Shown here piece after piece: positions 26,551 through 30,643 of a stretch of 64,000 nt of DNA; positions within the stretch are counted from its first letter, which is position 1, and every line of letters begins with the position of its first letter. The notes beneath the pieces were generated by a model. It had not been told where the DNA came from and ran no database searches. It saw nothing but the letters and a program-made list of their open reading frames with translations. This DNA comes from Dolichospermum sp. DET69 (lineage in GTDB: Bacteria > Cyanobacteriota > Cyanobacteriia > Cyanobacteriales > Nostocaceae). The stretch lies in contig CP070233.1 in assembly GCA_017355425.1 (NCBI GenBank), forward strand, positions 846,501 through 910,500. The letters are read 5' to 3'. The position numbers and the translations under genes are program-made.

Positions 26551-26678
26551 TAATATTGCTTATTAAAATTTTAGCGGTGTCCGTGACTAGCTGCTATGTC
26601 TGATGAGAAATTGCCTTGAGTTGTTAGAATGATAAAACCCTAAATTTATCTGGGATATACGGATTTAAACCTGTCTCC

Positions 26679-29603
26679 ATGTCTTACGAACCCCTGCACC
26701 ATAAGTATCGGCCAAAGAGTTTTGCTGAACTGGTGGGTCAAGAGGCGATCGCTACTACCCTAACTAACGCCATTCTTTCAGCGAAAATCGCCCCTGCCTA
26801 TTTGTTCACTGGCCCCAGAGGTACAGGAAAAACTTCTAGTGCGAGAATTCTCGCTAAATCTCTTAATTGTCTCCAAGGTAACCAACCAACTCCTTCACCC
26901 TGCGGCGTTTGTGAAATCTGTCAGGGCATTACTAAAGGCTATTCTACTGATGTAATTGAAATTGACGCTGCTAGTAATACAGGTGTTGATAATATCCGTG
27001 AACTGATTGAAAGGGCGCAGTTTGCCCCCATGCAGTGTCGTTATAAAGTTTATGTGATAGATGAATGTCTGACAGGAGATTCTTTGATTCTCACCGATGC
27101 TGGACTTATTCCCATTGATAACCCAAATATTCAAGGTCAGAGAGTTCTTAGTTACAATGAATCCTCTGAAAAATGGGAATTTAAGAAAGTTGTCCGTTGG
27201 TTAGACCAAGGAGAAAAGCAGACTTTAGTTATCAAAACTACTCACAGAGAAATTAAGTGTACAAGTAATCATTTAATCAGGACTGATGAGGGATGGATAG
27301 CAGCAAAAAACGTCAAAGAAGGAATGAAGATACTATCCCCTGTGAATGTGGATGTGGCACTCTCATCTACAAATTTGGGGTTGATGGACGCAGCCGAAGA
27401 TTTGTTAGCAGACACCAATTTAAAGGTAATACCTACGGACAAAAATTCTACGACGGGGAATCTATTCTTAGACAAGGGGAATTACTTCGGCCACTATGTG
27501 CTTGCGGATGTACAGAAAAGCTCGATATCCCAGACTTTTTGCAAAAAAAAGGTAGAGGAATCAAAAGTATCCAATCTTATTGGGCAAAACATCCATATCA
27601 AAAAGGACACGGAAATTGGGAACTTAGAACACAAAAATTCCTTACTAATGCGGCTTTTATACAGCCAGATACATTGGGACTCATCTACGGAACATTATTG
27701 GGAGATGGCTCAATCACTTACCCCAATAAATACAGTAGATTCCCTCTCAGTGGACAAGGAAGCCCACAGATTCAAATACATACAGAAGGATTCTCGCCTA
27801 CAGAAAATCAACTTATTGCCAACTGGCTTACAGAAATGGGATATCCAGCAACAGCAAAGTTCTACACCAAAAGCATCACAAATAAGCAGTACAACTACAT
27901 CTGGATGGGAGCAACCGCCAGTAGAAAATGGGTGGCAGATTTCAAACAATATTCCATACCCGCAATGGATTACAAATTTGGAGAAGGTCGAATCTGTTCA
28001 CCTCGCTGGAGTTGAGCGAGTTTATGATTTAGAGGTTGAGGATAATCATAATTTTGTAGCTAATGGATTATTAGTACATAACTGCCATATGCTTAGTACA
28101 GCGGCATTTAATGCGTTACTTAAAACCCTGGAAGAACCACCTAAGCACGTTGTTTTTGTCCTCGCCACAACAGATGCACAAAGAGTATTACCAACTATTA
28201 TTTCTCGTTGTCAAAGATTTGATTTTAGACGAATTCAGTTAGAGGCAATGGTCAAGCATTTAACCCATATTGCCGCCACCGAAAGTATTAATATTTCTCA
28301 TGATTCTCTGACTCTTGTGGGACAAATAGCCCAAGGAGGATTAAGAGATGCAGAAAGTTTATTGGATCAATTAGCTTTAGTAACTGGGGAAGTGACACCG
28401 GATAAAGTTTGGGATTTGGTGGGTTCAGTCAGTGAAAAAGATTTATTTGGGCTATTAGAAGCGATCTCTCAAGATCATGCGGAAATAGTCCTCGACTCTA
28501 CTCGTAAAATTCTAGATAGAGGCAGAGAACCCCTGATCATTCTCCAAAATCTCGCCGCTTTTTACCGAGATTTCCTCATAGCTAAAACTGCCCCTAATCG
28601 TCAAGATTTAGTTGCTTGTACTCAGTCAACCTGGACATCATTAGTAGAATTTGCCCAAAAATTTGACATTAGTACCATCTTGCTAGGACAACAACACCTA
28701 AGAACAGCAGAATTACAATTAAAAAATACCACTCAACCCCGTTTGTGGTTAGAAGTCACATTATTAGGATTATTACCCAGCGCGACTGTTCAAATCCAAA
28801 CCGCAAATATTCCCCAGCGAGTTAATCCCAATCCTCCACCCCCTGCTTATTCTCCCGCTGCTGCACCCCCATCAGCATATCCGCCCACAAATAACTACCC
28901 AGCTACTAATTTCGCCCCACCACCCGCGCCAGAACCTATATCTGCACCACCAGCACAGCCAGTGGGGGAAGGTTCACAACATGACTTAACACAACTTTGG
29001 CAACAAGTTCGGGGACATATTCAGCAGCTACCTACACAAGCATTGTTAGGACAAATGTGTCATTTAATGGAGTTCAATGATTCTATTGCCCGTGTAGGTG
29101 TAAAAGCGGTTTGGTATGACAAAGTAAAATCTTATCTACCTATCATTACCACAGCCTTTAGACAAACTTTCCAGCAAGAAATTCAAGTCACTTTAGAAAA
29201 AGCTACCACTGCAAACGCCACATCAACCAGAAGAAATCCACCACCACAAAATTCTCCTCCGGTTCAACAACCACCCCAACCTACAGCCAATCAGCAAACC
29301 CCAGCCCCGCCACCCACACCACAGCCAGTATCTACAGTATCAACACCACCATCAGTAGCAATCCAGCCTGAGCCTGTTGTTACCCATGCAGCACCAGTAC
29401 AAACTATTTCTCCGCCACCAGTACAACCATCTCCATCAAATTGGGATCATGATGGCGTAATTAAAGCTGCGGAAAGTTTAGCGAAATTCTTTTCTGGAGA
29501 AATTATCCGTGTGACAGATGATAGCTTCCAACTATCGGATTCTGTTACTTCTACTGAAACACCTGAAATATATGAATCCTATGTTGATGATGAATATAAT
29601 TAA
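26679..29603 (+). CDS. dnaX: DNA polymerase III subunit gamma/tau with in-frame intein
   Basis: The clamp-loader ATPase. The extein has [20 protein letters not shown], Walker [13 protein letters not shown] (45-56), a four-cysteine zinc module (C64, C75, C78, C81) and Walker B VYVIDE directly before the intein. After splicing, DE would join [20 protein letters not shown]. The sensor motif [21 protein letters not shown] and two proline-rich linkers follow. The 974-residue precursor minus the 339-residue intein gives a 635-residue protein. The insertion point lies in the most conserved active-site motif, as usual for inteins. It converges on tsaD with a 4-bp overlap. A second reading frame inside the intein is listed separately. 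Confidence 0.97.
27293..28015 (+). CDS. LAGLIDADG-type homing endonuclease nested out of frame inside the intein
   Basis: A 240-codon frame, -1 relative to dnaX, lying wholly within the intein. The translation is coherent: two short cysteine clusters (C17/C19/C21 in [15 protein letters not shown] and C69/C71/C73 in [13 protein letters not shown]), each followed by a basic, aromatic stretch ending in H-x-x-K-G, then a LAGLIDADG-like helix [15 protein letters not shown] (127-141) and a typical trailing region ([20 protein letters not shown]). One motif implies a homodimer, or a second degenerate motif. The frame closes at TGA 28013, just before intein block F. The only ATG at the start (27293) has AGGG directly abutting it, poor spacing for initiation, so access by frameshifting at 27305 is an alternative. 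Confidence 0.78.
   Translation: MDSSKKRQRRNEDTIPCECGCGTLIYKFGVDGRSRRFVSRHQFKGNTYGQKFYDGESILRQGELLRPLCACGCTEKLDIPDFLQKKGRGIKSIQSYWAKHPYQKGHGNWELRTQKFLTNAAFIQPDTLGLIYGTLLGDGSITYPNKYSRFPLSGQGSPQIQIHTEGFSPTENQLIANWLTEMGYPATAKFYTKSITNKQYNYIWMGATASRKWVADFKQYSIPAMDYKFGEGRICSPRWS
27305..27311 (+). promoter_or_regulatory. Candidate -1 ribosomal frameshift site (A AAA AAC)
   Basis: In the dnaX/intein frame the codons are GCA AAA AAC, so the heptamer is in exact phase for a -1 slip into the endonuclease frame, which opens at 27290. AGGG at 27289-27292 lies 12 nt upstream, comparable to the Shine-Dalgarno-like stimulator of the Escherichia coli dnaX frameshift. A second in-phase site (A AAA AAG, 27545-27551) lies further in. 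No strong downstream stem was evident by eye. Confidence 0.5.
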
Positions 29604-30643
29604 TTTTCGTACAACTGCATAACTTGGTTCAGTGAGAGCCGGGAATGGACTCCTAATGTGAGTGGTGATGTTCTGCCAAGGGATAGGTGTTCTACGGCTG
29701 CACAGCCAATCATGGCGGCGTTATCAGTGCAAAATTTCAAGGGAGGGAATAGAACTCGTAGGTTGTGTTTGCTGGCTGCTGCTTGCAAATGCTTTCTTAG
29801 TCCGCTATTGGCTGCCACACCACCACCTACAGTAATGGTATCTAGATGATAGTTTCGAGCGCAAGCGATCGCTCTTTTGGTTAGCGATCGCGCTACAGTA
29901 TCTTGAAAACTAGCCACAACATCCGCTATTGGTACTTCTTTACCTTCTTTCTCGAATTGCTGCACTAAACGCAATACCGCTGTCTTTAATCCGCTGAAAC
30001 TACAATCATAGGGATGATAACCCCCACCTGGTAAAGAAATTTTTCCTTCCGGTAATGGAAAAGCCTGGGGATTACCTGTTTGTGCCAACTTATCAATTAT
30101 TGGTCCACCGGGATAACCCAGTTTTAACAACCGCGCCACCTTATCAAAAGCCTCACCCGCCGCATCATCACGGGTTTCTCCCAAGGTTTCGTACATACCA
30201 TAATCTTTCACATAAATCAAGCTTGTATGACCGCCGGAAACAAGTAAGCTAAGAAAAGGGGGTTTTAAACTTGGCTCACTCAAATAAGTCGCGTAAATAT
30301 GGCCCTCTAGGTGATGCACTCCCAAAAAAGGCAAATTATGGACAATTGCTAGGGTTTTGGCAGCCGTTAACCCTACCAGCAACGCCCCCACAAGTCCAGG
30401 CGCACAAGTGGCAGCTATCCCATCAATCTGATTCCAGTCTAGATTGCTAGACTCCATAGCTTGCTCTATTTCATAATTCAGCGTTTCTAAATGCTGACGT
30501 GATGCCACCTCGGGCACTACCCCACCATATTGCTGATGAACAGAAATTTGTGAAGCAACTATACTGCTACACACTTCACGATTCTTAATAATTGCCACAG
30601 CAGTTTCATCACAACTGGTTTCAATGGCTAAAACGGTTGTCAT
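29600..30643 (-). CDS. tsaD: tRNA N6-threonylcarbamoyladenosine transferase
   Basis: The catalytic subunit that puts the threonylcarbamoyl group on A37 of ANN-reading tRNAs. ATG 30643 gives [19 protein letters not shown], the canonical start; the upstream ATG at 30673 adds ten unlikely residues. The ASKHA-fold features are present: [14 protein letters not shown] with metal-binding histidines, [39 protein letters not shown] and the C-terminal [10 protein letters not shown]. 347 aa is normal. It converges with dnaX, sharing 4 bp at the 3' ends. Confidence 0.96.

Follow-up and report, generated by a model that had tools for sequence, protein, structure and literature searches.

The window examined here, 64,000 nucleotides of Dolichospermum sp. 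DET69, contains a dnaX gene (DNA polymerase III gamma/tau) interrupted by an intein. An earlier note, made from the sequence alone, had proposed that an endonuclease gene is nested out of phase inside this DnaX intein. The 240-codon open reading frame (ORF) that it placed in the -1 phase of the open dnaX frame was found at the same coordinates (Table 1), together with the two C-x-C-x-C clusters and the LAGLIDADG-like helix that it described. The core of the proposal was correct, but the copy in the window is without the second catalytic motif, and the label of endonuclease is better suited to its relatives.

The DnaX intein and its -1 reading frame

The intein is complete, as had been claimed, and all of the key splicing residues were located in the open dnaX frame. 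It begins with CLTGD and ends with LLVHN, the next residue being a cysteine (CHML), and from a reading of the sequence the insertion site appears to be the Walker B motif of dnaX. Pfam, NCBIfam and the structural model were concordant in identifying a Hint splicing domain, giving both the Hint fold and the intein family profile, and the solved DnaX mini-intein 7cfv shares 61% identity across this domain. Alignment of 34 inteins revealed that C1, T66, H69, H338 and N339 are invariant; the block A Cys1, the block B TxxH, the C-terminal His-Asn and the following cysteine are all present in the window. In the model the intein-frame version of the endonuclease DNA looks like a passive disordered insert. 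It carries no endonuclease motif, as first noticed, and a motif of the LLGD type was in frame in none of the 89 dnaX inteins read (a sample described below). This absence and the -1 phase in the window led to rejection of the canonical bifunctional intein, in which the endonuclease is in frame, as the class of the element. The class of split inteins or fractured genes was rejected because the dnaX intein is contiguous. A group I or group II intron was rejected as the host element, as the host frame is open throughout and no Rfam match at the gathering score was obtained in window positions 26600-29700, nor in the related loci L003, L178, L181, L184, L186 and L187.

The window copy is about 91 codons shorter than its relatives (1290 minus 1017 nt), and the deleted segment includes the second LAGLIDADG motif. 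With this motif deleted, the ORF alone scored 12.8 bits against LAGLIDADG_2 (PF03161), below the Pfam cut-off of 25, and was not assigned to the family, while the intact relative L003 scored 78.4 bits. PF03161 was matched at an E-value of 0.1 or better by 25 of the 26 members of alignment A1, and both motifs (LLGD-type and W(W/F)xxDDG) were present in all 29 full-length copies of the 89-intein sample. By profile and by their two acidic motifs the intact relatives are putative LAGLIDADG_2 endonucleases, and the fold matches of the endonuclease model included PI-SceI and PI-PfuI.

The stop-free length of both frames was compared with codon-shuffled controls, as the earlier note had advised. When the synonymous codons of the 240-aa ORF were shuffled, the intein frame was stop-free in 6 of 10,000 permutations (mean 4.3 stops), and when the intein codons were shuffled the ORF was open in 0 of 10,000 (mean 9.6 stops); the third frame contains 15 stops. 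With stop-free outcomes so rare, it is unlikely that both frames are open by chance.

Table 1. Features of the dnaX locus, in positions of the window; pLDDT, predicted local distance difference test.
Feature	Position	Strand	Description
dnaX (DNA polymerase III gamma/tau) ORF	26679..29603	+	974 aa, exteins and intein in a single uninterrupted frame; NF011510 832.8 bits over two stretches
DnaX intein	27066..28082	+	339 aa, dnaX ORF residues 130-468; inserted after Asp-Glu of the apparent Walker B motif (VIDE^C...HN^CHML)
Splicing domain, N-terminal half	27066..27359	+	Intein residues 1-98; pLDDT 93-98 in blocks over 1-90, <50 from 99
Intein-frame reading of the endonuclease DNA	27360..27953	+	Intein residues 99-296; predicted disordered, pLDDT <50
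Splicing domain, C-terminal half	27954..28082	+	Intein residues 297-339; pLDDT 93-97 in blocks from residue 301
Endonuclease ORF, -1 phase of dnaX	27293..28015 (stop to stop 27290-28015)	+	240 aa; deletion derivative of a LAGLIDADG_2 endonuclease of ~330 aa
Endonuclease ATG start	27293..27295	+	Shares its A with intein codon Gly76 (base 3) and its TG with codon Trp77 (bases 1 and 2)
CxCGC module 1	27341..27418	+	Endonuclease residues 17-42; alignment A1; function presumed
CxCGC module 2	27497..27610	+	Endonuclease residues 69-106; alignment A1; function presumed
LAGLIDADG motif 1, 13-residue helix	27677..27715	+	G129, L130 and Y132-D138 invariant in alignment A1
Junction of 273-nt in-frame deletion, approximate	27744..27745	+	Took out motif 2 (AWWYMDDG in relatives)
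A AAA AAC heptamer, dnaX frame	27305..27311	+	A -1 frameshift there would also reach the endonuclease frame

Cyanobacterial relatives and double coding

The earlier note held that its proposal would fail if no homologue of the -1 frame existed anywhere, or if close relatives carried stop codons in it. Homologues were found: the window ORF matched 61 of 388 genomes of the order, one match (G244) being judged a chance match, and a scan of a named genome collection gave 56 loci, all dnaX inteins in records with cyanobacterial titles. The pooled 116 dnaX loci, which were selected by endonuclease similarity, contained 89 distinct complete inteins, every one open in the intein frame. Fifty-four of these are full length, 48 being exactly 1290 nt, and stops were found in the endonuclease of seven of the 54 and none in the other 47, where the core is open.

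A search with the intein N part detected inteins in 89 of the 388 genomes, and these make up the 89-intein sample: 27 are full length with the endonuclease open, 2 have nonsense codons, 10 are partial and 50 are mini-inteins. Among the inteins retrieved by this search only, 28 of 29 are open in the intein frame. The exception (L130, dnaX of genome G044) is frame-broken, its 826-nt intein being filled with an array of LRGDRVLPP-type repeats with intein-frame stops, and is either a pseudogene or an assembly artefact. Within the genus of the window the intein was present in 6 of 13 genomes and the site was uninterrupted in the other 7, a patchy presence that is no more than suggestive of homing.

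The permutation test was also applied to the 47 open full-length copies, the seven nonsense copies being left out. Permutation of the endonuclease codons predicted 5.6 intein-frame stops and permutation of the intein codons predicted 13.5 endonuclease-frame stops, and none was seen in either frame of any copy; the unused third frame contained 18.1 stops, compared with 18.4 predicted. Codon positions and four-fold sites were analysed in 45 sequences (990 pairs, L023 excluded). For the exteins (0.521) and the intein N part (0.503) dnaX position 3 was the fastest; in the overlap it was dnaX position 2, which is endonuclease position 3 (0.421, compared with 0.223 at dnaX position 3). In the 0.5-0.6 bin the four-fold p-distance was 0.549 for the exteins, 0.539 for the intein N part, 0.413 for the endonuclease frame and 0.155 for the intein frame within the overlap, so that synonymous sites of the intein frame vary far less there than in the exteins, as the proposal of overlapping genes had predicted. 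A crude dN/dS for 82 close pairs (Nei-Gojobori, uncorrected for overlap, L023 included) gave 0.08 for the exteins, 0.20 for the endonuclease frame and 1.29 for the intein frame of the same DNA. The fastest-position, four-fold and dN/dS patterns therefore indicate that selection is mainly on the endonuclease frame, the intein frame being mostly kept stop-free. The two coding constraints that had been claimed over about 700 bp were shown for the intact copies, with an overlap of about 1 kb, and not for the window copy.

The start of the second frame is conserved as well. An ATG overlaps the codon for intein Trp77 in all 46 of the 1290-nt inteins compared, including two with a Gly to Ala change, and its A was present in 53 of 55 distinct inteins of at least 1200 nt compared with 15 of 27 mini-inteins, which were found irrespective of endonuclease similarity. 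Upstream of the ATG only 1 of 75 third positions is invariant, and this belongs to a Trp codon; third-position entropy drops from 1.25 to 0.48-0.57 where the ATG lies and is back at 1.11 past the endonuclease stop. The simplest reading of these alignments is that translation would initiate internally at this ATG. Extra CxCGC modules were observed at the endonuclease N-terminus in L032, L033 and L105 (dnaX inteins of 1566, 1566 and 1356 nt).

Out-of-phase endonucleases in phage helicases

The window ORF had no match in phage and plasmid records. A viral contig relative with 34% identity (L178) lies in the -1 phase inside the intein of a phage helicase, and the same -1 layout was found in gp40 of Xanthomonas phage FoX3, where Pfam detects helicase and intein domains. 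The annotation of FoX3 gp40 reads 'putative DNA helicase' in one record and 'head morphogenesis' in its RefSeq copy. In a broader scan of viral contigs 22 loci were obtained; by their reading frames 7 of them were out of phase, 5 had the nuclease in the frame of an intein-like ORF and the other 10 were unclassified. The out-of-phase loci represent six distinct cases: L188 (the same as L178), L189 (the same as FoX3) and L194 in the -1 phase, and L190/L191, L192 and L193 in the +1 phase. Judged from these loci, the arrangement is not confined to the window locus or to Nostocales. Scans of viral contigs with two further endonucleases gave no match for that of L184 and only a FoX3 copy for that of FoX3.

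Helicase domains were found by Pfam in the host ORFs of L190, L192, L193 and L194. PF14890 scored above its cut-off in L178, L181 and L194, and 20.7-34.1 bits in the +1 inteins L190, L192 and L193, below the cut-off of 35.8. TIGR01443 (intein C-terminus) was above cut-off in L190 and L193; L192 was not listed, and would be an intein by position and reading. The helicase inteins that hold the +1 endonucleases of L190-L193 have a different N-terminus (CLPPSAL, CLSPNA), and these +1 inteins perhaps represent a second origin. PF03161 scored 76.9-129.1 bits in the five endonucleases scanned and 88.9 bits in L178. For the six distinct viral cases 3.3-17.1 intein-frame stops were expected and 0 were seen, and with 2000 permutations each none was stop-free except 18 for FoX3. 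All of the phage-helicase inteins interrupt their host directly after Asp-Glu, and in the -1 cases a start codon is found at the same Trp position, ATG in L178, L194 and L184 and GTG in L181.

When the locus of Pectobacterium phage Amona (L184) was read frame by frame, the helicase was found as two ORFs that both match the RadD helicase family. The first has an intein N-terminus (TIGR01445, 26.7 bits, cut-off 24.5) and the second an intein C-terminus (TIGR01443, 27.8 bits, cut-off 15.6), the intein halves thus being on separate ORFs as in a split intein or fractured gene. The endonuclease ORF is in the -1 phase and overlaps both helicase ORFs, with 33.4 bits to PF03161 against the cut-off of 25. 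Phage Abuela (L185) has the same layout according to its annotation, and three more such phages are listed. In the records of L184 (1617-4727) and L185 three separate features are annotated, a hypothetical protein, a homing endonuclease and a DNA helicase. The intein frames of Amona and Abuela contain 13 stops each, where 12.4 and 13.3 were expected, which is the contrast that would follow if selection keeps the contiguous forms free of stops.

The split phages suggest a route towards split inteins. The intein frame could break without harm to mobility because the endonuclease has its own start, which would leave two halves with an overlapping endonuclease between them, as in the Pectobacterium phages. 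It may tentatively be proposed that out-of-phase nested endonucleases form a separate, recurrent class of mobile inteins in P-loop ATPase genes (dnaX and phage helicases, at the same Walker B position and in two phases) and a route to split inteins.

Interpretation and comparison with known systems

The dnaX insertion is very probably a composite mobile element that yields two proteins from one stretch of DNA, a spliced intein and a separately initiated endonuclease. In the dnaX frame the stretch would be translated within the DnaX precursor, and its conserved ends would fold as a Hint domain that excises the whole insert, the middle of which would be a disordered by-product that mainly needs to be stop-free. 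In the -1 frame ribosomes would start internally at the ATG over the Trp77 codon, giving a separate endonuclease of about 330 aa, in which two CxCGC modules precede a LAGLIDADG_2 core that has two motifs and resembles I-SceI. This enzyme would cut the uninterrupted Walker B site of intein-less dnaX alleles and repair would copy the intein in; splicing would protect the host, and the endonuclease would drive spread. The window copy would represent a late stage, with an intact splicing domain and an endonuclease crippled by the loss of 91 codons including motif 2, and is itself likely to be a dead relic; the mini-inteins of five other genomes of the genus would be the end stage. Splicing, translation, cleavage and homing are steps that we infer; the analysis itself shows the two frames and how they are conserved, where the second gene starts and ends, which folds are predicted and how the element is distributed.

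Several observations weigh against this interpretation. A 4-nt Shine-Dalgarno match lies upstream in 25 of 48 full-length inteins and in 11 of 27 mini-inteins at the same nucleotide position, with no clear difference between them. L032 and L033 have CTG at the Trp-codon start and an in-frame ATG 12 codons upstream, L178, L181, L184 and L194 have additional starts upstream of the shared position, and the Amona and Abuela records put the endonuclease start elsewhere. The nonsense codons in full-length copies fit a decaying homing gene but also a dispensable one, and endonuclease-frame dN/dS in close pairs with one nonsense copy (0.20) is not higher than in the others (0.21). In 74% of the 990 pairs the four-fold sites evolved more slowly in the endonuclease than in the intein N part, so the intein frame may be constrained beyond stop avoidance; these slower silent sites suggest that the intein frame adds a further, weaker constraint. 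The distances of the endonuclease are correlated with those of the N-extein (0.62, computed with L023, whose N-extein is out of register), and frequent recent horizontal transfer within dnaX is unsupported. Recent transfer proposed from distance outliers was dropped, as the outliers were mostly L004, with a masked extein, and L023. A conversion-like tract covering the endonuclease was observed between L011 and L008 (intein nt ~213-913), with a divergence of 0.01-0.05 in the endonuclease span and 0.05-0.17 in the flanks.

With regard to origin, an in-frame intein domain could have been shifted out of phase by two compensating frameshifts, as opposed to a separate gene entering a mini-intein. 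In-frame relatives of the core occur in the phage inteins L182 and L187 and, by reading, in L195, L196, L198, L206 and L209, and both -1 and +1 arrangements exist. However, no in-frame endonuclease was found among the 89 sampled dnaX inteins, and the two nearest solved enzymes, I-SceI and I-WcaI, are intron-encoded. The tree of 22 rows, from which L194 was dropped by the motif filter, gave support of 90/82 for the -1 group and 99/97 for the +1 group, but its branches are long throughout and its root is not known; holding all out-of-phase and split rows together was not rejected (p-AU 0.197). Such a frameshifted origin is regarded as unlikely. The endonuclease might be made as a fusion to the N-terminal part of the intein by programmed -1 frameshifting in the dnaX mRNA, with no internal initiation. 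Genes for dnaX are known for -1 frameshifting, the A AAA AAC heptamer of the window leads from the dnaX frame into the -1 frame, and the initiation signal upstream of the ATG is weak. This route is nevertheless highly improbable, as a scan found such a heptamer in just 4 of 48 1290-nt relatives, frameshifting would not explain why the A of the ATG is conserved at a synonymous position, and a start codon recurs at the same position in phage helicases (ATG in three, GTG in one). That the -1 ORF is a dead relic everywhere, open by chance or recent descent, is scarcely credible. It would fit the nonsense codons in 7 of 54 full-length copies, the missing motif 2 of the window copy and the make-up of the 89-intein sample, with its 10 partial and 50 mini forms. 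Against it, 47 of 54 copies are open, endonuclease position 3 is the fastest across 990 pairs, the endonuclease frame has an uncorrected close-pair dN/dS of 0.20 where the intein frame has 1.29, and both motifs are kept in all 29 full-length sample copies.

When the composite element was compared with known systems, it resembled canonical bifunctional inteins such as PI-SceI and PI-PfuI in having a Hint domain interrupted by a LAGLIDADG endonuclease. Canonical inteins carry the endonuclease as a domain in the frame of the spliced intein, whereas in dnaX it is a separate ORF in another phase. The host of I-SceI and I-WcaI is an intron, whereas the host here is an intein with an open frame and no Rfam match. 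Fractured genes, with split inteins and an endonuclease gene between the halves, were reportedly described by Dassa et al. in 2009. The element shares with them an endonuclease gene that is independent of the intein frame, and the Pectobacterium phage helicase resembles them; unlike them, the dnaX inteins are contiguous and hold the endonuclease wholly inside the intein frame. For the Ssp DnaX intein of Synechocystis PCC 6803 splicing of a mini form was demonstrated, and the passages of these papers covered here regard the endonuclease region as a normal domain and do not mention a second frame (PMC3443213, PMC3620165).

The ShiLan domain and the Pacc40 insertion are out-of-frame HNH endonucleases in phage DNA methylase genes (PMC11855218), and an out-of-frame HNH in a phage methylase has another description (PMC12613952). 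In the passages of PMC11855218 covered, the endonuclease ORF is likewise out of phase with an unbroken host frame, the host-frame reading is predicted to be disordered, separate translation is proposed and homing is inferred. Phages are the main hosts described for ShiLan-type insertions in the same passages, which also mention similar sequences in prokaryotes. They differ from the dnaX element in that the enzyme is HNH and not LAGLIDADG and in that no splicing domain was found, so that the insert is believed to be retained by its host protein; a frame-by-frame selection analysis, as made here, is absent from these passages (PMC11855218). With a LAGLIDADG_2 core and a Hint domain, the dnaX element was not classed as a ShiLan-type hidden endonuclease insertion.

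No description of an out-of-phase endonuclease inside an intein was found in the open-licence papers searched, although an older mention is possible, as older DnaX, non-canonical and fractured-intein papers lay outside this scope. What appears new is a mobile intein with its endonuclease encoded by a distinct, overlapping gene, the nearest known systems being the ShiLan HNH insertions, which are not inteins. The usual description of an intein is of a single polypeptide in which an endonuclease domain is nested; in this element the endonuclease has an overlapping ORF of its own, about 1 kb long, within a bacterial gene that is essential. As an example of bacterial overlapping genes it is long and clean: constraint is visible in both frames, and the mini-inteins, the nonsense copies and the split form in which stops are back serve as internal controls. 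Endonuclease expression would be freed from splicing, and the origin of split inteins is made testable. The arrangement may also explain inteins seemingly without an endonuclease, in which the nuclease would sit in another frame.

Further relatives were observed in the cyanobacterial searches. L060 and L061 were rejected as relatives of the core: both are weak matches, the first an open frame without the motif and the second on a phage-like contig with HNH and CxCGC ORFs. The dnaX intein L120 of genome G387 (723 nt) is without a long -1 frame, and repeat-like sequence fills the space between endonuclease remnants at its two ends. The LAGLIDADG core also has free-standing relatives, found in L162 (1477-2130, - strand) and L163 (1357-2079, + strand); they lie between similar neighbouring ORFs in two families of the order, and each is maybe a domesticated or intergenic homing gene.
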